64,000 nt of DNA. Source: Agathobacter rectalis ATCC 33656. Its GTDB lineage: Bacteria > Bacillota > Clostridia > Lachnospirales > Lachnospiraceae. The position numbers and the translations under genes were made by a program. The stretch lies in NCBI RefSeq assembly GCF_000020605.1, contig NC_012781.1, positions 243,501 through 307,500 of the forward strand. The letters run 5' to 3'. Below are positions 7,538-57,056 of the stretch, one piece after another; position 1 is the first letter of the stretch; the number at the start of each line of letters is the position of its first letter. Under the pieces are notes generated by a model. The model was not told where the DNA came from and made no database searches. It was given only the letters and a program-made list of their open reading frames with translations.

Positions 7538-7586
7538 AAAAAAATCCACATACATCATGTTGAAAGAGATGTATGTGGATTTTTTT
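7538..7586. terminator. Bidirectional rho-independent terminator between ECF S gene and trpF
   Basis: A perfect 19-base inverted repeat, arms 7538-7556 and 7568-7586, containing ATCCACATACATC and its complement with an 11-base loop. A-run on the left and T-run on the right make it work in both directions. The right arm overlaps the trpF stop codon. Confidence 0.95.
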
Positions 7587-8250
7587 ATGATTTTATTGCC
7601 GCAACAAAATCATGTATCTTGTCCGGATTCTTACCCGCTTTGTCATCATTTTCCACACCTGATGATACATCGACTCCGTCAGGATGCACGGCTTCAATTG
7701 CCATGCGCACATTGTCTGGATTTAAGCCACCTGCGAGCAGCAGCAGCTTTTCATCGCGGGGGATATTGTCAACCAGCTTCCAGTCAAAGGTTTTTCCACT
7801 GCCGGGTTCGATGGCATCAAACACATAGCCTGCGATGCGTGAATCGTTGTGATACTTTTCATAGCTGTCCATATCAGAGACATTGAAGGCTTTAAGAATC
7901 GGGATAGCTATTGCTGCCTCCGCCTCTGTCTCCGGAATTTCCCCATGTATCTGGACATAGTCAAAGCCTGCAGCCTCAATCTGCCTTATCTGCTCTATGG
8001 ATGGCGAAACGACAACCGCAACCCTTTTGATGGAAGCATCAAGGGCTGCCATAATATCCTTTGCCTGTTCGATGGATATATTCCTCTTACTCTTTGGAAA
8101 AAATAACACCATACCCGCAAAATCAACGTGATTTTCGTTGAGATACCGTGCTTCAGCAGGTGAAGTCAGACCGCAGATTTTTATTTTTGTGTTGGAATTT
8201 GTATTTATATTATTATCACTAATTTCTTTAGCTGTATTCTGTGTATTCAT
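7585..8250 (-). CDS. trpF: Phosphoribosylanthranilate isomerase
   Basis: TIM-barrel isomerase converting phosphoribosyl-anthranilate to carboxyphenylamino-deoxyribulose phosphate in tryptophan synthesis. Seen: KICGLT (catalytic Cys), YVQIHGE, LLLAGGLNPDN and GVDVSSGVEN (phosphate-binding and catalytic Asp region). 221 residues, slightly longer than usual because about 22 Asn/Thr-rich residues precede KICGLT; no better in-frame ATG exists, though a shorter start cannot be excluded. It is unusual in standing alone on the minus strand with no trp neighbours in the window, so it is either a detached operon member or a second copy. Ends inside a strong bidirectional terminator. Confidence 0.92.
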   Translation of the reverse strand: MNTQNTAKEISDNNINTNSNTKIKICGLTSPAEARYLNENHVDFAGMVLFFPKSKRNISIEQAKDIMAALDASIKRVAVVVSPSIEQIRQIEAAGFDYVQIHGEIPETEAEAAIAIPILKAFNVSDMDSYEKYHNDSRIAGYVFDAIEPGSGKTFDWKLVDNIPRDEKLLLLAGGLNPDNVRMAIEAVHPDGVDVSSGVENDDKAGKNPDKIHDFVAAIKS

Positions 8251-8280
8251 ATCCTAAGAATAGCATTGTTGCAGGTTGAT

Positions 8281-8352
8281 CGCAAGTGGATATATTTTAA
8301 ATTATTGAGCATTAATTGCAAGTGGATTTACGTTAAATTATTGAGTATCGTT
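8281..8352. repeat. Two tandem 36-bp repeats abutting structured element copy 1
   Basis: Units 8281-8316 and 8317-8352 both read YGCAAGTGGAT, then (A/T)TTAAATTATTGAG and end in a pyrimidine-rich TT; they differ at several positions. A third unit seems to start (CGCAAG at 8353) inside the left arm of the palindromic element. This suggests duplication at the edge of the element. Confidence 0.7.
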
Positions 8353-8614
8353 CGCAAGCCGCGGGTACCCTGGAGCACACACTATCCCGCGAAAGCGAAT
8401 AGCGGAGCTGCTTAGAGACTGTAGAATTGTGCTATGTAAAGCAGAAATGCCGAGGCATGGACGCCGAGGCAAGGAGAAATCGAGCCATGGATGGCGAGTT
8501 TCGACGGTTTCGTCGAGTTAAGAAAACCTTGGGCACAATTCGTACAGCCTCTTAGCTGCGTAGCGTAGCGAACGTGGGATAGTGTGTGCACCATGGTACC
8601 CGCGGTTTGCGAAC
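8350..8614. ncRNA. Candidate structured RNA or palindromic repeat, copy 1 (unassigned family)
   Basis: Outer stem: 8350-8369 pairs with 8595-8614 (one mismatch), then a small internal loop, then GCACACACTATCCC with GGGATAGTGTGTGC. An asymmetric internal loop contains GCGTAGCGTAGCG on the 3' side. A second stem pairs 8410-8432 with 8533-8556. Inside sit hairpin A (8448-8456/8463-8471, loop ATGGAC), hairpin B (8481-8486/8493-8498, loop ATGGAT) and a small CGACG/CGTCG hairpin. Hairpins A and B each carry adjacent G.A and A.G mismatches, typical of sheared tandem GA pairs. The same layout recurs at 39870-40138 with compensatory changes. No coding frame is supported. Strand is uncertain because the element is nearly self-complementary. 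Confidence 0.7.
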
Positions 8615-8724: not shown

Positions 8725-9750
8725 ATGTCAACAGAAAAGATTAAAGAATATATCGGAACACAGCTCAAAGCACTCACATCAATAGCAAGCCCTACAGGTT
8801 TCACAAAAAATGCCACAGACTATCTGATGAAGCAGCTTGAGGCTATGGGATATGCGCCACAGCTTTCAAATAAAGGAAATGTCAGCGTGGAAATCGGTGG
8901 AGTTGGAGCACCTTTGGTATTGGCAGCGCATGTGGACACGCTTGGAGCCATGGTTCGCTCAATAAAGGATAACGGACGTTTGCGCCCAACAACTATCGGT
9001 GGTCATCAGTGGAGCACAGCAGATGGAGAAAACTGCATGGTTTTTACGCGTGATGGCAGAATGTACACAGGCGTGGTGCTAAATACAGAGCCATCGGCAC
9101 ATGTGGCAGATGAAAAGGTCGAGACAAAGGAAGAAAATATGGAAATCCTGCTCGATGAAAATGTAAATGATAAGCAGGGGGTGGCGGCACTTGGCATCCA
9201 GACAGGGGATATTATCGCCATGGATCCGCGCACAGTCATCACGGAGAGCGGCTATATCAAGAGCCGTTTCCTTGATGATAAGCTGTCAGCCGCCATCTTA
9301 CTCGGTGTGGCTCATGCCGTAAAGGAGGAGGGCTGGAGGCTAAACCGCAAGGTCACACTGCTCTTTACGGTTTATGAGGAGGTAGGCCATGGCGGAAGCT
9401 TTGTACCGGCTGATACTGAGGAGATGATTTCCGTAGACATGGGCTGCGTTGGAGCAGACCTAGGCTGTACAGAGCATATGGTTTCAATCTGTGCTAAGGA
9501 CTCAGGCGGACCTTACAACTATGAGCTTGTTACAGAGCTTTCAAATCTGGCAAAGAGCGAGGGGCTTGACTATGCAATCGATGTTTATCCGCACTACGGC
9601 TCTGATGTTGAGGCAACACTGCACAGCGGATATGATATCCGTCATGGGCTTATCGGTGCAGGAGTTTATGCATCGCATAACTATGAGCGCTCACATATGG
9701 ATGGCGTGGAGAATACTTATAAGCTTTTGAGAAAATATATTACAAAATAG
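8725..9750 (+). CDS. M42-family metallopeptidase (glutamyl aminopeptidase-like)
   Basis: Cytosolic dodecameric zinc/cobalt aminopeptidase of the M42 family (PepA/tetrahedral aminopeptidase group), trimming peptides. Metal and catalytic motifs: LAAHVDTLGAMV (first metal His and Asp), FLDDKLSAA (bridging Asp), YEEVGHGG (catalytic Glu pair), SVDMGCVG, and the late His in HYGSDVEA/SHNYERSH. 341 residues, the usual length. ATG is preceded by AGGAG at 8711-8715. Some relatives are annotated as cellulase M, a historical misnomer. It stands alone between structured element copy 1 and a VOC protein gene on the same strand. Confidence 0.92.
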   Translation: MSTEKIKEYIGTQLKALTSIASPTGFTKNATDYLMKQLEAMGYAPQLSNKGNVSVEIGGVGAPLVLAAHVDTLGAMVRSIKDNGRLRPTTIGGHQWSTADGENCMVFTRDGRMYTGVVLNTEPSAHVADEKVETKEENMEILLDENVNDKQGVAALGIQTGDIIAMDPRTVITESGYIKSRFLDDKLSAAILLGVAHAVKEEGWRLNRKVTLLFTVYEEVGHGGSFVPADTEEMISVDMGCVGADLGCTEHMVSICAKDSGGPYNYELVTELSNLAKSEGLDYAIDVYPHYGSDVEATLHSGYDIRHGLIGAGVYASHNYERSHMDGVENTYKLLRKYITK

Positions 9751-12500: not shown

Positions 12501-15500
12501 ATGAAGAGATTAAAACAACGAATCTTAGCAGGGGTGCTTGCATTCGTAATGTGTATTAGTACAGTAAATGTAACTGCATTCGCTCAGGAAAATGAAACGA
12601 CCAGTGAAATTCAGGAAATTATTGCAATTAGCGAAGCGGGAAGTGAAAATGAAGTATCGACAGAAAATATTGAAATAACAGATACTTCTGTTTCGGGAAA
12701 TAACGTGGAACCAGTTGAAGATAAGCCACGTAATAAAAAGCATAAAAAAGTGGCGAATGAAAAAGTTTATGAAGGTGAAAATTATAATGTTACATTTTCG
12801 GTAACATCTTCTTGGGAATCCGGTTATAATGCAAATGTCAAGGTTGAAAACACAGGAAATGATACGATACAGAACTGGTATTTATCATTTGAATATGATG
12901 ATCAAATTACCAATATTTGGAATGCAGAGATTTCTACACATGAAGAAAGTCAATATATTATTAAGAATGCCGACTGGAATCAGGATATTGTTGTTGGAGG
13001 AAGCATAGAATTTGGTATTTCAGGTAGTACAGCATTTAATGAGTTCCCAGAAAATTTTAATGTTGTAGGAGAAAATAAAGAGGTTCAAGAGGAAGATTAT
13101 TCTGTACAATATCAGGTTGATAGTGATTGGGGAAGTGGTTTCACAGGTAGCATTCAGATTACGAATAATACGGACAAGACATTAGAAGATTGGGTGTTAG
13201 AGTTTGATTTTGAAAGAGAAATAACAAATATTTGGAATGCTGTTATTGAGTCCCACGAAGGAAATCATTATGTAATAAGAAATGCCGGATATAATGCGAA
13301 TATTACTGCCGGACAGAGTGTTTTGTTTGGATTTAATGGACATGGTGGTTCAGCAAATAATGTAGCAGAAAATTGTGTATTATATTCATGGGAAATAGAT
13401 ACTACTGAATATGTAGAACTTTCTGATGGCAAGATTGAAAAAAATTATTTGGAAAGAGCAATATACACAAATTTATTGTTACAAGGTTTGTCGATTGATA
13501 ATATCCGGTTGGCGGATGATTACGATGAAGATGGTTTGACATTATCACAGGAATATGAATATGATACCAATCCATTTTCAAAAGATACGGATGAAGACGG
13601 ATTAAATGATTATGAAGAGATTAATCTACATAAGACAAATCCTATAAAATACGATTCAGACGAGGATGGAATGAGTGACGGAACAGAAATCGCTTGTGGA
13701 TTGAATCCTTTAAGTTCTGATACAGATGGAAATGGAGTTATAGATAGCCAAGAAATCGTAACACAAGCGGTTAGAATAGACACGGTGGAACAATATCAGC
13801 TTCAAGAAGTTGGAACATTACCCAATATTCAAATAACGGGAAAAGGAGATTATAGTCAAAAAATATATGCAACGGCATTGGAAAATGATGCTACAATAAT
13901 GGATATTGACTGTCTTGTAGGAACTGCGTTTGATTTTATTCATGATGAAGACTTGTCTTTTGAAAATAGTCAATTAACATTTACAATCAGTAATGAAATT
14001 TTGAAAAAAAATAAATTAACCGACTTAGCGATTGCTTGGTACAACGAAGAAGAGAATGCACTTGAATTATTAGACACAACACATAATATGGACAATTGCA
14101 CAATATCAGCAGAAGTTAGTCACTATAGTACTTATATGGTAGTATCGGTGCCTGATTATTTTTTTAATATTGATTGGGAAAATGAAGATAGTATTATTGA
14201 AGCAGGCAAAGCCGATGTTGTATTTGTGATTGATACTACTGGTTCTATGGGAAATGAAATACAAAATGTTAAAAATAACATAGAGACAGTTGTATCTAGT
14301 CTGGAAGAAAATAAGGTTGATATTCGCTTGGGACTAGTAGAATATAGAGATATTTATGCAGATGGAATTGGTTCCACCAAAAGTTATGATTGGTATACAA
14401 GTGTATCTTCCTTTAAAAGTGAGTTAGCTACTTTGGGTGTAAGTGGTGGTGGAGATACTCCGGAGTCCGTAGTAGATGCGTTGTATTGTGCAAGAAATAT
14501 GGAATATCGTACAGGAGTAAAAAAATATGTAATACTTTTAACAGATGCAAATTATAAAAATGGTACATCTGTAGATTCTGGTGCAACACTTACAGATGAG
14601 ATAAGAAGACTTGTAGAAGAAGAGCTTGTTGTATCGGTGGTTACAACGCCATCTTATTATTCTACATACAATAGTCTTGTTAGCCAGACCGATGGAGTTA
14701 CTGCAAATATTAATCAAAATTTTGCATCTGCACTTGCTCCATTAATTACTAAAATGGGAGAACAAGTAAATCAGGGATGCTGGATAAGATTATCCAACGG
14801 TTCTGTTGTATCATTAGACAAGGATCCTACTTTAGGAGATGAAACCATTGACACGGACGATGATGGTATACCAGATATCATTGAATTAAAGTCCAGTTAC
14901 AAGGTGCATGCTTATAACCCGTATACAAAGAAAATGCAGGAAATTGATACATGGTCTTTTTACAGTAATCCGTCAAAAAGAGATACGGATGGTGATACAT
15001 TAAGTGATATCGATGATTTGCAACCAACAAAATACGATACTGTTGTTATAAAAGAGAATGATTCATCTATTGCGTTTAATACAGGAAGAACCTGGTACAA
15101 TATAAGTTGCACATCTTTTGATTATTTAGACAATTTAATGCAGATGGTAGATGGAAAAGTAGACAACCCGATTCCAATAGAGCAATTTCGGCAGATTATT
15201 CAAAATGTAGCGAATAATGAAAAGCAAGCCTTTACCATTGAGGAACTAACGTATATTGCAATCATGAATAATGAAGGTTCCAAGTTATATATGCATAATT
15301 TGTCGTCAGTCACAAGGGAAAATGTATTCCAGAAAATTGCTGGTAGAGAAAGTCGTTATTATAAGCATAGCGGTATATGGTGGAATGAAAATTGGAGTGA
15401 AGTTCCAAAAGGAACTGAAAGTGGTTTCTTTAAAGGAACGGTTTTATCGGAAGCAGATATTAATCTATCTTGGGAAATTTATTGTGTATGTGATGTATAT

Positions 15501-16061
15501 ACAGTATTAACAACAGTAGCACAAGTTGGTGCGTTAGTCATTGCAATTGTGGTAGTGGCCGAGGTTACACCTGTTGTTCTTGCCAATATTCAAGGGCTGG
15601 CATATTATGTAAAAACATTTGGAATTGTTCAAGGAATTCAAATGTATCGGTATTTGGGAATTCAGAACTTGCCAAACGGTGTAATTTCATGGTTGCAAAT
15701 GGATATGGCAGATGGAGACAGTTCTGTAGATGATGTTGCATTAGCCATTCAAAAAGAAAGTGTAGAAAAGAAATTGGACACTTACTTATTAAATAAAGAT
15801 CATCCTGTAGGAGGTTCTAAAGCGAATTGGTTTGAAAAAGCATTAGGTTTTACAAAAGAAAATGCAGGACAACTTGCAAAACAGATTGTATTTGATGAAA
15901 ATGTGGCTGTCCAGACGGCTGTTACGGAACATGGAATTAAATACAATCAGTTGATATCTATAGTAGGAGCGAATGGGAAGAAGATAGATGTTGTATTTGT
16001 GTGGATAAAAAACAACGATGGATTTGTAAGATTGGTTACTGCGATACCAACAAAGAAGTAG
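12501..16061 (+). CDS. Large secreted vWA/CBM2-like/calcium-repeat protein with C-terminal DUF6883-like toxin domain
   Basis: 1186 residues. A signal peptide runs to about residue 28 (cleavage near AFA-Q). Two CBM2-like beta domains at about 92-185 and 200-295 share the pattern ITNIWNA(E/V)I and end in IEFGISG/VLFGFNG. Thrombospondin-3-like calcium repeats cover about 338-430 (DYDEDGL, DTDEDGLNDYEE, DSDEDGMSDG). A von Willebrand A domain starts near 570 with MIDAS VIDTTGSMG. More calcium repeats lie near 783-835 and a hydrophobic stretch near 1000-1030. Residues about 1098-1186 (KDHPVGGSKANWFEKALGF ... RLVTAIP) match DUF6883 as I recall it. AGGAGG precedes the ATG by 10 bases. The next gene resembles DUF4926, the usual partner. 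I infer a surface-displayed polymorphic toxin under c-di-GMP control; the toxic activity is unknown. Confidence 0.82.
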   Translation: MKRLKQRILAGVLAFVMCISTVNVTAFAQENETTSEIQEIIAISEAGSENEVSTENIEITDTSVSGNNVEPVEDKPRNKKHKKVANEKVYEGENYNVTFSVTSSWESGYNANVKVENTGNDTIQNWYLSFEYDDQITNIWNAEISTHEESQYIIKNADWNQDIVVGGSIEFGISGSTAFNEFPENFNVVGENKEVQEEDYSVQYQVDSDWGSGFTGSIQITNNTDKTLEDWVLEFDFEREITNIWNAVIESHEGNHYVIRNAGYNANITAGQSVLFGFNGHGGSANNVAENCVLYSWEIDTTEYVELSDGKIEKNYLERAIYTNLLLQGLSIDNIRLADDYDEDGLTLSQEYEYDTNPFSKDTDEDGLNDYEEINLHKTNPIKYDSDEDGMSDGTEIACGLNPLSSDTDGNGVIDSQEIVTQAVRIDTVEQYQLQEVGTLPNIQITGKGDYSQKIYATALENDATIMDIDCLVGTAFDFIHDEDLSFENSQLTFTISNEILKKNKLTDLAIAWYNEEENALELLDTTHNMDNCTISAEVSHYSTYMVVSVPDYFFNIDWENEDSIIEAGKADVVFVIDTTGSMGNEIQNVKNNIETVVSSLEENKVDIRLGLVEYRDIYADGIGSTKSYDWYTSVSSFKSELATLGVSGGGDTPESVVDALYCARNMEYRTGVKKYVILLTDANYKNGTSVDSGATLTDEIRRLVEEELVVSVVTTPSYYSTYNSLVSQTDGVTANINQNFASALAPLITKMGEQVNQGCWIRLSNGSVVSLDKDPTLGDETIDTDDDGIPDIIELKSSYKVHAYNPYTKKMQEIDTWSFYSNPSKRDTDGDTLSDIDDLQPTKYDTVVIKENDSSIAFNTGRTWYNISCTSFDYLDNLMQMVDGKVDNPIPIEQFRQIIQNVANNEKQAFTIEELTYIAIMNNEGSKLYMHNLSSVTRENVFQKIAGRESRYYKHSGIWWNENWSEVPKGTESGFFKGTVLSEADINLSWEIYCVCDVYTVLTTVAQVGALVIAIVVVAEVTPVVLANIQGLAYYVKTFGIVQGIQMYRYLGIQNLPNGVISWLQMDMADGDSSVDDVALAIQKESVEKKLDTYLLNKDHPVGGSKANWFEKALGFTKENAGQLAKQIVFDENVAVQTAVTEHGIKYNQLISIVGANGKKIDVVFVWIKNNDGFVRLVTAIPTKK

Positions 16062-38580: not shown

Positions 38581-39141
38581 ATGGATGATAGCGCAATAGT
38601 TGAATTGTTTTGGAAGCGTGATGAACAGGCAATTGCTGCAACAACAGAAAAATATAATGTATATTGTTTATCAATTGCGATGAATATTTTGGGAAACATT
38701 GAGGATGCAGAGGAATGTGTGAATGATGCATATCTGAATACATGGAATTCTATTCCGCCAAACAAACCTAAAATGTTATCGACTTATCTTGGAAAGATAG
38801 TCAGAAATATGTCATTCAATTTGTATAAGAAAAACAGAGCTAAGAAGCGCACAAATGGAAGCTTCACGTTAATATTGGATGAATTATCTGAGATAATCAC
38901 TGATTCGAAAAATATTGAAGATGAGGGCAATGCCAGGTTCCTGTTAGAGAACATTAATTCTTTTCTTAAGGAAATACCGGCTGAGAAAAGACAAATTTTT
39001 GTGTGTCGTTACTGGTATTCTGACAGCGTCAGGGACATAGCAAAGAGATATGGCATGACTGAAAACAATGTTTCAGTTACATTAAAGAGGATAAGAAAAA
39101 AATTACATGATTACCTTGTTGAAAGGGGCGTTGATTTATGA
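38581..39141 (+). CDS. ECF-type RNA polymerase sigma factor
   Basis: 186 residues. Region 2 (IEDAEECVNDAYLNTWNSIPPNKPKMLSTYLGKIVRNMSFNLYKK) and region 4 (EKRQIFVCRYWYSDSVRDIAKRYGMTENNVSVTLKRIRKKLHDYL) are clear. ATG at 38581 has AAAGGAGG (38565-38572) 8 bases upstream; the GTG at 38575 is a poorer choice. It overlaps the next gene (ATGA), which encodes a membrane-anchored anti-sigma-like protein. Together they form a cell-envelope signalling pair. No target promoter is recognisable. Confidence 0.9.
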   Translation: MDDSAIVELFWKRDEQAIAATTEKYNVYCLSIAMNILGNIEDAEECVNDAYLNTWNSIPPNKPKMLSTYLGKIVRNMSFNLYKKNRAKKRTNGSFTLILDELSEIITDSKNIEDEGNARFLLENINSFLKEIPAEKRQIFVCRYWYSDSVRDIAKRYGMTENNVSVTLKRIRKKLHDYLVERGVDL

Positions 39142-39869
39142 ATGCAGAGAAGATATTTGATGTAATGGAAAACATAGACGAACAATATATTATAGAAGCT
39201 CATCAAAAAAATGTTATCAAAAATAAAAAAAAGACAATTCGTAAAATAGTAGTATTTGCTGCGTGTTTTTCTTTAATAATAAGTATAACAGCAGTTGTTG
39301 GAATTGGCATAAAACGAAATTCTACATGTACTGTTTCGGCAGCGGAAATAGGGAAAGAGGAGGTACAGCTTGAGGCGACCATGCCAAGTATAATCTATTA
39401 TGATCAGGATAAGGTGATAATGTATGATTATATTGGAATATGGGTTTATAATCTAAAAAAAGAAAAGCTAGTGGGATTTTGTGATTTCAGACCAATAGAT
39501 ATGACACAGATACAAGGTTATCCGTGTGTTTTCGTTGAAGCATCATCAGATGGCAGATACGTAAGATTTTACAAATCAGATGATTCTGTGAAGTTTTTGT
39601 ACAATGTGGAGAAAGACACATATAAAGAAGTCAAAAGCTATGATAAAAAATTGAAATGGACATTCAGCTTAAAGGATGTAACCACTCAATATTCGATATC
39701 AGATTATTCAGAGACATATGAAGTGGCAAAGAAAGAATATTTATCATACTCCTTAGACATTAGCCCGGATTCGAATGAGGCGGTCAGGTATAAGGACTTG
39801 GTTATTGTAGTTGAAAAAAATGGTCAAAAAACAGAGTATAAGCCATTTGTCGTTAAAACTACAACGTAA
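39138..39869 (+). CDS. Membrane-anchored anti-sigma-like protein
   Basis: 243 residues: about 35 cytosolic residues (MNAEKIFDVMENIDEQYIIEAHQKN), one membrane helix at about 36-57 (IVVFAACFSLIISITAVVGIGI), and a roughly 185-residue exported beta-rich domain with WD-like phrases (VIMYDYIGIWVYNLKKEKLVGFCDF, SSDGRYVRFYKSDDSVKFLYNVE). Start overlaps the sigma-factor stop, the standard arrangement for an anti-sigma factor that holds the sigma protein at the membrane. No zinc anti-sigma HxxxCxxC motif is present, so it belongs to another type. The stop codon directly abuts structured element copy 2. Confidence 0.8.
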   Translation: MNAEKIFDVMENIDEQYIIEAHQKNVIKNKKKTIRKIVVFAACFSLIISITAVVGIGIKRNSTCTVSAAEIGKEEVQLEATMPSIIYYDQDKVIMYDYIGIWVYNLKKEKLVGFCDFRPIDMTQIQGYPCVFVEASSDGRYVRFYKSDDSVKFLYNVEKDTYKEVKSYDKKLKWTFSLKDVTTQYSISDYSETYEVAKKEYLSYSLDISPDSNEAVRYKDLVIVVEKNGQKTEYKPFVVKTTT

Positions 39870-40138
39870 GGCACGTAAGCCCCGGGTACAGGACGCGCAT
39901 ACGTACTCTTGCAGGGGCGCATAGCGAAGATGTTTAGAATCTGTAGGATTATGCCGGAAAGCCAGAAATGCCCAGCCATGGACGGCTGGGCAAGGCGTTA
40001 TGCGCCACGGACGGCGCATAAAAGCCGGTTTCGTCAAGCATAGAAAACCATCATGCATAATCCGTACAGAATCTTAACAGCGTAGCGTAGCCACGGCAAG
40101 AGTACGTATGCGCGTCCGGTACCTGGGGCTTGCGTGCC
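39870..40138. ncRNA. Candidate structured RNA or palindromic repeat, copy 2 (unassigned family)
   Basis: Outer 43-bp stem 39870-39912/40096-40138 with only two wobble pairs and one mismatch. Conserved internal loop with GCGTAGCGTAGC (40080-40091). Second stem 39931-39954/40055-40079. Hairpin A TGCCCAGCC (39969-39977)/GGCTGGGCA (39984-39992), loop ATGGAC. Hairpin B TTATGCGCC (39998-40006)/GGCGCATAA (40013-40021), loop ACGGAC. Compared with 8350-8614 the stem bases differ but pairing is kept (for example GAATTGTGC/GCACAATTC there, GGATTATGC/GCATAATCC here), while loops and junctions are conserved. It lies between an anti-sigma gene and the SRP RNA promoter. Confidence 0.72.
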
Positions 40139-40169
40139 GTACTCATACCACAAGAAGTTGCAATAAATC

Positions 40170-40199
40170 TTGACAAAACCCTGCATTATAGCGTATACT
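40170..40199 (+). promoter_or_regulatory. SRP RNA promoter
   Basis: TTGACA (40170-40175), 18-base spacer, TATACT (40194-40199), placing the start near 40205. Confidence 0.85.
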
Positions 40200-40204
40200 T
40201 AAGA

Positions 40205-40470
40205 CTCCGAGCAGCCGGGGTGGTAGCGGTACCTTGAACCAACAATCCGCTATAGTTGGGGTGATGCTTCGTAGAGGGCTTAAGCGGTGGAGCTGCCCTC
40301 CATAAGTGGCGTTGACGTCTGGGTCTTGCGCAATGGAAATCTATGAACCGTGTCAGGGTGGGAACACAGCAGCACTAAGTAGAAGCTTCCATGTGACGCG
40401 AGGCAGCCTGGAGGGAGTTAACTGTGGAGGTAACGTCTGTTGTGATGGTTCGAAGCGAGGCGCTCGGATT
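40205..40470 (+). ncRNA. ffs: Signal recognition particle RNA, large (Bacillus-like) type
   Basis: The conserved SRP domain reads GTGTCAGG ... GAACACAGCAGCACTAAG (about 40350-40380), the asymmetric-loop and Ffh-binding signature. The 5' part GCCGGGGTGGTAGCGG and following hairpins form an Alu-like domain, so this is the about 265-nt Gram-positive form rather than the short 4.5S type. Ends pair: CCGAGC near 40208 with GCTCGG at 40463-40468, followed by a T-run as terminator. The RNA scaffolds Ffh for co-translational membrane targeting. The exact ends are inferred from the promoter and closing stem. Confidence 0.92.
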
Positions 40471-54376: not shown

Positions 54377-55450
54377 ATGAAGAAAATTGGAATGCTTACC
54401 AGCGGAGGAGACTGCCAGGCACTTAACGCAGCCATGAGAGGTGTGGTAAAGGCGCTGGCACACAATATCGACGAGCTTGAGATTTACGGCTTTGAGAACG
54501 GGTACAAGGGACTCATATATGAGAACTACAGAATACTCACATCAAAGGATTTTTCGGGCATCCTGACAAAGGGCGGCACAATACTCGGCTCATCAAGACA
54601 GCCTTTTAAGCTTATGAGAGTGCCGGATGAGAACGGACTGGACAAGGTTGCAGCCATGAAAAACACATACAAGAAGCTTGGTCTTGACTGTCTCGTTATT
54701 CTGGGCGGAAACGGCACACAAAAGACAGCCAATCTTCTCAGGGAAGAGGGACTTAATATCATTCATCTGCCAAAGACAATCGACAATGATATCTACGGCA
54801 CAGATGTGACCTTTGGCTTCCAGAGCGCGATCAATATAGCTACAGATGCAATCGACTGCATCCACACCACAGCAGCATCCCACAACCGTGTATTTATCGT
54901 TGAGGTTATGGGCCACAAGGTAGGCTGGCTCACACTGTACGCAGGTGTTGCGGGCGGTGCAGACATCATTCTGCTTCCTGAGATACCATACGATATTGAC
55001 AAGGTCGTAGATGCCATCCACAAGAGAACAAAGGAGGGCAAGGGCTTTACCATTCTTGCAGTAGCAGAGGGAGCCATCTCCAAGGAGGATGCAGCCCTTT
55101 CCAAAAAGGAATACAGGAAGAAGCTTGCAAAGAGCAAATACCCGTCAGTATCATACGAGGTTGCAGACCGCATCAGCGAAAGACTCGGTCTTGAGGTCAG
55201 AGTGGCAGTTCCGGGACATACACAGCGAGGCGGCAGCCCATGTCCTTACGACAGAGTGCTTTGTACACGTCTTGGCTCAGCAGCAGCAAAGGCCATCATG
55301 GATGAGGATTACGGCTGCATGATAGCCATGGTAAACGGACAGACAAAGAGGGTTCCGCTTGCCGACGTAGCAGGAAAGCTTAAGACTGTAGATCCAAAGA
55401 GCCAGATGATCAAGGAAGCAAAGCGCACCGGCATCTGCTTCGGAGATTAA
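54377..55450 (+). CDS. pfkA: 6-Phosphofructokinase
   Basis: 357 residues, phosphorylating fructose-6-phosphate to the 1,6-bisphosphate in glycolysis. Seen: IGMLTSGGDCQALNAAMRG, LGGNGTQKTANLL, the PKTIDNDI catalytic segment, EVMGHKVGWLTLYAG and PGHTQRGGSPCPYDR. Two positions differ from E. coli PfkA: the GGDGS loop is GGNGT (Asp103 to Asn) and PGTIDND is PKTIDND (Gly124 to Lys). Lys124 is typical of pyrophosphate-using and mixed-type enzymes, Gly104 of ATP-using ones, so donor preference is open. ATG at 54377 has AAGGAGG upstream. Confidence 0.93.
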   Translation: MKKIGMLTSGGDCQALNAAMRGVVKALAHNIDELEIYGFENGYKGLIYENYRILTSKDFSGILTKGGTILGSSRQPFKLMRVPDENGLDKVAAMKNTYKKLGLDCLVILGGNGTQKTANLLREEGLNIIHLPKTIDNDIYGTDVTFGFQSAINIATDAIDCIHTTAASHNRVFIVEVMGHKVGWLTLYAGVAGGADIILLPEIPYDIDKVVDAIHKRTKEGKGFTILAVAEGAISKEDAALSKKEYRKKLAKSKYPSVSYEVADRISERLGLEVRVAVPGHTQRGGSPCPYDRVLCTRLGSAAAKAIMDEDYGCMIAMVNGQTKRVPLADVAGKLKTVDPKSQMIKEAKRTGICFGD

Positions 55451-55484
55451 GCAGCAATATTAGATATAAGGAAGGTGAAAAGGC

Positions 55485-57056
55485 GTGTCTTATCAGGCCC
55501 TATACCGTAAGTTCCGTCCACAGGAGTTCGAGGACGTAAAGGGACAGGAACACATTGTAACAACACTGAAAAACCAGATAAAAGCTGACAGAATAGGGCA
55601 TGCCTATTTATTTTGCGGTACGAGAGGTACGGGAAAGACCACTGTGGCCAAGATATTTGCAAAGGCAGTCAACTGTGAGCACCCTGTAGACGGAAGCCCG
55701 TGCGGCGAATGTCCGTCGTGCAGGGCAATCACTGAGGGCTCATCCATGAATGTCATAGAGATAGATGCAGCGTCAAACAACGGCGTGGACAATATCAGAC
55801 AGATTCGTGAGGAGGTCACATACCGCCCGACAGAGGGCAGGTACAAGGTCTATATCATCGACGAGGTTCACATGCTTTCGGCAGGAGCCTTCAATGCACT
55901 TTTAAAAACACTCGAGGAGCCGCCGAGCTACGTTATATTTATACTGGCGACCACCGAGGCACACAAGATACCGATTACTATCCTGTCCAGATGCCAGCGC
56001 TATGATTTTCACAGGATTTCCATAGATACGATTGCATCTAGACTCAGCGATTTGATGGAACAGGAGCATGTGGAGGTTGAGGAGCGCGCCATAAGGTACG
56101 TGGCCAAGGCAGGAGACGGCTCCATGAGAGATGCGTTAAGTCTCCTTGACCAGTGCATTGCTTTCCATCTGGGAGAGAAGCTCACCTATGAAAATGTGCT
56201 CGAGGTGCTTGGAGCGGTGGACACAGAGGTGTTTTCAAGGCTCTTAAGGCGCATACTCGACGAGGATGTGACAGGCGCCATCCGCATACTGGGCGAGCTC
56301 ATAGATGAGGGCAGGGAGCTGTCGCAGCTTGTCAATGATTTCACCTGGTATATGAGGAATCTTTTGCTTTTGCAGAGCTCAGACGATATGGAGGAGGTGC
56401 TCGACATCTCCAAGGACAATCTTGAGGCACTTAAGGAAGAGGCAGCGCTTGTAAAGCCTGAGACACTCATCAGGTATATCAGGGTATTTTCCGAGTTGTC
56501 CAGCCAGGTAAAGTTTGCATCGCAAAAGCGTATTATGGTCGAGATAGCCATAATAAAGCTGTGCAGGCCGCAGATGGAAAAGAGCTATGATTCGGTGCTT
56601 GACCGCATAAACAGCATAGAGAAAAAGCTTGAAAAGGGTATACCTATAGCGGCACAGGCTGCGCAGACACAGGATATGCAGCAGGCCGCAGCAAGCGAGC
56701 CTATAGTGAAAAAGGAGCTTCCCAAAGCAATACCACAGGATATCTCAGAGCTCATGAAGCACTGGAAATCCATACTTTCGGAGATGGGAGCAACATCAAA
56801 GGTTTATCTGAACAAGGCTGTGACATCGCTGGGCAATTCATCTGACCTGATTTTAATGTTTGATGATGAGAATGCGTATGAGTATCTCTCTGAAAACCGT
56901 GCAGGCTGTATGGATACGCTGGCTTCGCTTATAGAAAAGCGTATAGGCAAAAAAGTCGAGGTGACGGTCAAGAAAAATAATTCCGCAGTCAGCGCAAAGG
57001 AAGCGGTTGTGGACTTGACAGATATGATAAATTTTGATATAGAGGAAGAAAACTAA
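55485..57056 (+). CDS. dnaX: DNA polymerase III subunit gamma/tau
   Basis: 523 residues, clamp-loader motor. MSYQALYRKFRPQEFEDVKGQEHIV start, Walker A FCGTRGTGKTTVAKIFAKAVNC, zinc cysteines C-x8-C-x2-C-x2-C (CEHPVDGSPCGECPSC), DEVHM Walker B, SRC motif LSRCQRYDFHRI. Domain III and a tau-like C-terminal part (about 370-523) follow; no frameshift site for a gamma form is evident. Start is GTG at 55485 with AAGG sites upstream. First gene of the conserved dnaX-ybaB-recR cluster. Confidence 0.96.
   Translation: MSYQALYRKFRPQEFEDVKGQEHIVTTLKNQIKADRIGHAYLFCGTRGTGKTTVAKIFAKAVNCEHPVDGSPCGECPSCRAITEGSSMNVIEIDAASNNGVDNIRQIREEVTYRPTEGRYKVYIIDEVHMLSAGAFNALLKTLEEPPSYVIFILATTEAHKIPITILSRCQRYDFHRISIDTIASRLSDLMEQEHVEVEERAIRYVAKAGDGSMRDALSLLDQCIAFHLGEKLTYENVLEVLGAVDTEVFSRLLRRILDEDVTGAIRILGELIDEGRELSQLVNDFTWYMRNLLLLQSSDDMEEVLDISKDNLEALKEEAALVKPETLIRYIRVFSELSSQVKFASQKRIMVEIAIIKLCRPQMEKSYDSVLDRINSIEKKLEKGIPIAAQAAQTQDMQQAAASEPIVKKELPKAIPQDISELMKHWKSILSEMGATSKVYLNKAVTSLGNSSDLILMFDDENAYEYLSENRAGCMDTLASLIEKRIGKKVEVTVKKNNSAVSAKEAVVDLTDMINFDIEEEN

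Follow-up and report, generated by a model that had tools for sequence, protein, structure and literature searches.

The element found twice in the window (the whole analysed stretch of 64,000 nucleotides of the Agathobacter rectalis ATCC 33656 chromosome) is probably a miniature transposable element of the fold-back type. In this reading it is a non-autonomous, MITE-like piece of DNA of ~270-330 bp whose two halves pair, and whose inner 168 nt have been catalogued as the RNA family TwoAYGGAY (RF01731). The RNA family is already known; its transposon-like character is the new part. An Rfam scan of the window matched RF01731 to both copies with scores (Table 1) above the gathering score of 43 bits, and RF01731 was the sole family to reach its gathering score in either copy. 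Around copy 1 no other family appeared at E≤1, and GOLLD, ROOL, HEARO and RAGATH gave no match. The first-pass annotation of this DNA had proposed a candidate new RNA family and had itself named an Rfam hit as grounds for giving up that idea, which is therefore rejected. Its description of the two elements was accurate. They measure 265 and 269 nt, each is closed by a near-perfect outer stem, and they share exactly the internal loop GCGTAGCGTAGC (8558-8569 and 40080-40091). The side-hairpin loops are as it had read them, and copy 1 does show the tandem G.A/A.G mismatches. The observation that the stems differ and keep pairing also extends beyond the window, since among 30 of the 49 copies of this genome at least one two-sided change was found in 42 of 56 consensus pairs.

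AYGGAY hexaloops in two hairpins, the hallmark of RF01731, are present in both window copies, which agree with the family in structure, loops and sequence. However, the Rfam model ends at 168 nt, while the element described here goes on into paired palindromic arms. A 2010 paper lists TwoAYGGAY, with human gut, gamma-Proteobacteria and Clostridiales as its sources, as a probable RNA that is 'probably not' cis-regulatory (PMC2864571, in the part available to us). Rfam files it under type 'Cis-reg' in clan CL00106; unlike that label, the element is multicopy and mobile-like, and its context is not cis-regulatory. The accessible literature on the name TwoAYGGAY, taken without the supplement of the 2010 paper, mentions neither mobile-element ends nor inversions, and a transposon identity for TwoAYGGAY was not found in the accessible text of the literature on bacterial repeats and MITEs.

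Table 1. Parts of the two TwoAYGGAY copies in the window (window coordinates).
Feature	Position	Strand	Evidence
TwoAYGGAY copy 1, stem-bounded palindrome	8350..8614	+	Rfam, folding
RF01731 core, copy 1	8400..8566	+	129.4 bits, model 1-168
5' palindromic arm, copy 1	8350..8391	+	38/42 aligned positions complementary
3' palindromic arm, copy 1	8573..8614	+	arm alignment
Hexaloop ATGGAC, side hairpin A, copy 1; GGA (CsrA-like) motif	8457..8462	+	sequence, loop census
Hexaloop ATGGAT, side hairpin B, copy 1	8487..8492	+	sequence
TwoAYGGAY copy 2	39870..40138	+	Rfam, folding
RF01731 core, copy 2	39922..40088	+	146.3 bits
Left terminal motif TACAACGTAAGG, copy 2 (family consensus CACARCGTAAGG)	39860..39871	+	
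Right terminal motif CCGTACTCATA, copy 2 (family consensus CCGTACTATTG)	40137..40147	+	
Hexaloop ATGGAC, side hairpin A, copy 2	39978..39983	+	sequence
Hexaloop ACGGAC, side hairpin B, copy 2	40007..40012	+	sequence

Copy 1 is located between two divergent genes, one with a PRAI domain (7585-8250, minus strand) and one for an M42 peptidase (8725-9750, plus strand). A sequence of ~40 bp (GCAAGTGGAT...AAATTATTGAG) is tandemly repeated at 8258-8349, directly before the copy. Copy 2 lies between an ORF without Pfam match (39138-39869), whose stop codon is the TAA of the left terminal motif, and the gene for the bacterial large SRP RNA (40207-40467). A promoter-like TTGACA-18-TATACT stands at 40170-40199, just past copy 2. 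Elsewhere in the window, a c-di-GMP-I riboswitch (RF01051, 12354-12458) is followed by the gene for a protein of 1186 aa that has CBM_2 and VWA domains (12501-16061).

In the whole genome (3,449,685 bases, one contig) RF01731 was found in 49 dispersed copies on both strands, all above the cut-off, and a close relative (draft assembly G014) has 33. Outside the Rfam core, the arms of intact copies pair near-perfectly over ~30-60 bp; the shortest arms pair at 29 of 30 positions. Some arm alignments extend into AT-rich flanks, and the arm sequence varies from copy to copy. Many copies, not all, show weak terminal motifs, CACARCGTAAGG on the left and CCGTACTATTG or CCGACCTA on the right. In 46 of the 49 copies no drawn ORF covers most of the core; in the other three a putative ORF of 119-178 aa covers most or all of it.

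The distribution of carriers is patchy. The searches used strict filters and scored a capped number of candidates, which makes these counts lower bounds. Within the genus at least 24 of 60 genomes carry the element (this one included), and overall at least 25 of 98. Across the class, at least 36 of 391 genomes have a match at E≤0.001 and at least 27 of 391 one over the cut-off, in at least 24 of 223 genera. Copy 1 had no match in phages, and one copy of genome G054 gave just pieces at E=0.5 there. Eight pattern matches in viral contigs were found, none of which was RF01731 when scanned. A pattern scan of genome contigs returned, among the 80 of 106 stretches listed, mostly unrelated phyla, and five loci from that scan, outside G014, gave no RF01731 match.

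The ends expected of a transposon were found in relatives. In the finished genome G052, near-identical copies stand at unrelated loci: those at 187040 and 583958 are 98.8% identical in the core and 100% in a 45-nt arm, and those at 4066084 and 4026166 are 99.4% and 100% identical, respectively. Copies were searched for an inverted repeat together with an exact duplication of at least 7 bp, and in the control the left and right flanks were taken from different copies. In G052 (inverted repeat ≥16/20; 23 of at least 24 copies used, 13 of them outside paired units) 4 of the 13 copies had both, compared with 0 of 156 swapped-flank controls; the duplications were AAAATAAT, ATATGAT, CTTTATAGG and ATAATAT. 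In G054 (≥10/14; 19 of 22 copies used) both were found in 4 of 19 copies and in 1 of 342 controls, two of the four duplications being self-complementary and hence ambiguous beside a palindrome. In G134, a single-contig genome of another family (≥10/14; all 7 reported copies used), the figures were 4 of 7 copies and 0 of 42 controls, and a fifth copy had TTTTGCAT on both sides. The duplications in these three genomes are exact and 7-10 bp long. The length between them is 312-315 nt in G052, 315-321 nt in G054 (266 and 334 nt for the ambiguous pair) and 284-286 nt in G134. Most copies of G052 and G054 lack an exact duplication. In A. rectalis and G014 together (8/12), a duplication was found in 1 of 77 copies and in 1 of 453 controls; with no signal beyond chance, the copies there look old.

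Pairs of opposite copies, separated by a spacer that is free of long ORFs, recur in G052 (L313 at 3741882-3743912, and L314, L317, L318 and L320). The L313 pair lies, by eye, within a unit of ~1 kb bounded by 18-bp inverted ends, and this unit contains no ORF longer than 100 aa. Three of the other four pairs align with L313 in one piece over 581-1031 nt, the fourth over 235 nt. An autonomous partner was sought in G052 by the end motif, which occurred at 19 places; four of these lay away from the listed copies and proved to be palindromes or remnants with no Rfam match. The genes between the copies at 2803448 and 2805675 did not look transposase-like by eye. In plasmids, phages and viral contigs, searched with one end, no transposase with the element's end was found.

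As in bacterial MITEs, the element is short and has no transposase gene inside, and inverted repeats with target-site duplications are present in part of the G052, G054 and G134 copies. Like Correia, RUP, RPE, YPAL/RU-2 and CIR, it is non-autonomous and often intergenic, with inverted repeats, target-site duplications and a stable fold. The small mobile repeats (MITEs) of bacteria described in the accessible part of the review PMC2229807 are <200 bp long and give structured transcripts. Compared with the repeats in that part, TwoAYGGAY is larger (the span between duplications is 284-321 nt where these are unambiguous and 266-334 nt if the two ambiguous cases are counted) and differs in its branched core, two GGA hexaloops, copy-specific yet pairing arms and 7-10 bp duplications.

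Comparison of orthologous loci showed that the core inverts. Loci were taken as orthologous when at least one flank matched at ≥0.80, which gave 26 of the 49 loci in common between A. rectalis and G014. The core is inverted relative to its flanks at 6 of these 26 loci, or 6 of the 18 with both flanks at ≥0.80, and the G014 ortholog of window copy 1 is one of the inverted copies. In four-way alignments of the arms at all six, a position within the palindromic arm divides the variants: those that go with the flank stand solely on its outer side, those that go with the core solely on its inner side, so the exchange took place between the arms. All six inversions were scored against a draft assembly. 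However, at locus 968366 it is the finished A. rectalis genome, not the draft, that appears flipped, and the longest exact arm repeats at the six loci are 13-51 bp, which makes it unlikely that all six stem from assembly error.

The arms also change together. Concerted changes, at which the two genomes differ while both arms within each genome agree, were found at 13 arm sites in 22 ortholog pairs, compared with ~0.3 expected from independent changes. Before the doubtful pair 2999324 (12 sites alone) was dropped, there were 25 concerted sites in 23 pairs, besides 80 single-arm changes and 56 other patterns. Since the arms change in concert and the switch points lie within them, "compensatory" changes in the outer stem need no selection on RNA; arm exchange probably imitates the paired changes by which RNA genes are recognised. 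Template switching between inverted repeats has been described to homogenise arms and invert the spacer in yeast coding DNA (PMC8604942, in the part consulted). TwoAYGGAY shares both outcomes with that case, but is a bacterial repeat that is scattered over the genome and classified as an RNA family.

Both window copies fold strongly. The MFE was -146.6 kcal/mol (z -11.9) for copy 1 and -168.9 kcal/mol (z -16.4) for copy 2, and none of 200 shuffles of either folded as well. The reverse strand of copy 1 (-134, z -12.6) folds almost equally to the forward strand, and copy 1 folded as DNA gave z -10.7. As the reverse-strand and DNA folds are also strong, folding alone shows neither the strand nor whether RNA or DNA is the folding molecule. 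In the alignment of copies within the genome the conserved core is strand-specific, and in 30 of the 49 copies aligned the core helices covary between paralogs. This covariation in the core is not fully accounted for by arm exchange. Between orthologs, ~1.3-1.6% of paired core sites, 3.6% of unpaired core sites and 3.6-5.4% of arm sites have changed; the lower ends of these ranges leave out double changes, and the summaries leave out pair 2999324, matched by one flank only (1 of 23 pairs). Core changes between orthologs broke a pair in 20 cases and kept it in 14. Because paired core sites change less and the core covaries, some structural constraint exists beyond plain MITE behaviour; judged from these alignments, the present constraint on the element is modest. 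The inference of selection on RNA or single-stranded DNA structure made in the first-pass annotation thus stands in part: the nested, covarying structure is conserved, but for the outer stem the argument fails, given the arm-to-arm exchange of DNA between orthologs.

Copies decay by several routes. Of window copy 2, G014 retains an inverted half with a microhomology joint upstream of the SRP RNA promoter, and this remnant ends in the SRP promoter region. L021 is deleted in G014 with a 14-nt end scar. At the place of the G014 copy L093, A. rectalis has 6 kb and an element-end remnant, and G052 contains palindromes that have lost the core. The copies in A. rectalis look old, and some copies are being lost through deletion.

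None of the loci checked proved to be a clean empty site of the ancestral state; they were deletions with scars, or rearrangements. The scarred L021 deletion, the L093 place and the locus of window copy 2 were each rejected as empty sites on the grounds just given, and L004 was rejected because the G014 sequence beyond its flank is unrelated. Locus 495876 was rejected as well, because A. rectalis DFI.5.28 has a different palindromic element there. This element (L301, NZ_CP143948.1, ~55407-55613) is multi-branched, occupies the intergenic place of the ATCC 33656 copy and may represent another family of this type. NZ_CP143948.1 (252 kb) is labelled a plasmid of A. rectalis; it carries rpoC, metK and many ribosomal protein and other core genes, and therefore looks like a chromosome segment, not a plasmid.

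Some copies have in turn received insertions. In four copies of this genome (L041, L042, L044 and L045; at 2053357, 2184758, 2406493 and 1468841) a group II intron is inserted antisense at the same AACGCAGAAA site. Each of the four introns matches RF02001, and the one examined for a reverse transcriptase has PF00078. The G014 orthologs of two of these copies are uninterrupted. Four antisense introns at one site suggest that the TwoAYGGAY repeat serves as a homing site. In L046 and L047, which are close together (2039595 and 2042526), a partly palindromic insert of ~150-200 nt is found within side hairpin A.

We consider it unlikely that the copies are dispersed small RNA genes, each transcribed and titrating CsrA with its two AYGGAY hexaloops. 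An Rfam scan of E. coli csrB showed that CsrB shares clan CL00106 with RF01731. CsrB has GGA in hairpin loops, as TwoAYGGAY does, and A. rectalis has csrA, so that the GGA loops and the csrA gene looked for in an sRNA of this clan are both present. The motif CANGGANG occurs in both hairpins of 37 of the 44 A. rectalis copies of at least 160 nt and of 29 of the 33 G014 copies, and binding of TwoAYGGAY by CsrA was proposed from motif matches in 2014 (PMC4333381, in the part available). csrA was found in 23 of the 24 carriers of the genus; however, it was equally present in non-carriers (33 of 36), so that csrA does not explain the carrier pattern. As 56 of the 60 genomes examined in the genus have csrA, its co-occurrence was set aside as uninformative. 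TwoAYGGAY departs from CsrB in that each element has two sites, the copies are many and dispersed, no promoter was recognised, and in relatives the ends are those of a mobile element.

Several observations on the copies argue against a dedicated regulator. Relative to their neighbours, 17 of the 49 copies lie in the same direction as both, 13 antisense, 11 between convergent and 6 between divergent genes, and 2 were given no assignment; the neighbours were drawn as longest ORFs by a simple caller, and any ORF lying for the most part within the element was left out of the count. Consensus scans of the stretches round both window copies recognised no promoter-like site reading into them and no terminator-like site. 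The flipping of the core relative to the flanks would cut it off from external promoters, and in the G014 ortholog of the 1468841 copy both loops are without GGA. Varying orientation, inversions and the lack of a recognisable promoter thus all count against transcription as a sponge gene.

A further reading is that the element is an extragenic palindrome that travels in the form of folded single-stranded DNA, in the style of REP sequences and RAYT/Y1 enzymes, with the core as the recognition hairpin. The strand-specific conserved core, the strong folding as DNA and the mostly extragenic location are in keeping with it. However, no Y1 transposase (PF01797) match was found in A. rectalis or G014, on which ground mobilisation by a RAYT was rejected for this genome; among the genomes of the genus PF01797 matched in 9 of 24 carriers and 20 of 60 overall. 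Y1 enzymes are not known to make target-site duplications, and duplications of 7-10 bp point to an enzyme of the DDE type instead. We regard this route as very improbable.

The two remaining readings are the least credible. That the element is a cis-regulatory leader controlling the downstream gene rests on the type field in Rfam and hardly fits a family in which just 17 of 49 copies point the same way as the two drawn neighbours, which the accessible part of PMC2864571 calls 'probably not' cis-regulatory and whose orthologous copies flip; the gene context of the 49 copies led us to reject it. It is just as hard to believe that a recombinase flips the core as an inverton to switch the expression of neighbours: six of the 26 orthologous copies are indeed inverted, but consensus scans found no promoter-like site inside the window elements, the arms that contain the switch points are copy-specific and show no obvious common crossover sequence, and template switching yields homogenised arms together with an inverted spacer (PMC8604942, in the part consulted). 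Moreover, in DFI.5.28, whose flanks are 96-99.6% identical to those of ATCC 33656, the element is present at 4 of 5 comparable loci, and all four copies are in the ATCC 33656 orientation.

The miniature fold-back transposon is thus the preferred reading. The target duplications suggest that a cut-and-paste transposase of the DDE type would move the element in trans. In lineages where it is still moving, pairing of the halves would be under selection, and the fold may be kept there by its part in movement or because it does no harm when transcribed. Template switching, or else recombination of one arm with the other, would flip the core and keep the arms complementary without selection on RNA. 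Upon read-through from a neighbouring gene, the two GGA hexaloops of the core may bind CsrA, a putative interaction. A broader version, which we put forward as a rather doubtful speculation, is that RF01731 is a transposon that has spread a foldable, CsrA-binding RNA through the Clostridia, its fold kept by mobility and arm exchange, its covariation partly written by DNA processes, and its copies acting as a mobile sponge that works in either orientation. If this were true, the covariation that defines RF01731, and perhaps that of other palindromic 'RNA families', would be partly written at the DNA level rather than by selection on RNA.

TwoAYGGAY offers a concrete case of a long stem whose compensatory changes arise at the DNA level, through arm exchange with inversion of the spacer. 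As covariation is usually read as selection on RNA, palindromic repeats in Rfam should be checked for target duplications and inversions before regulation is assigned to them. For TwoAYGGAY itself, an RNA family listed since 2010 gains a testable identity as a fold-back transposable element.
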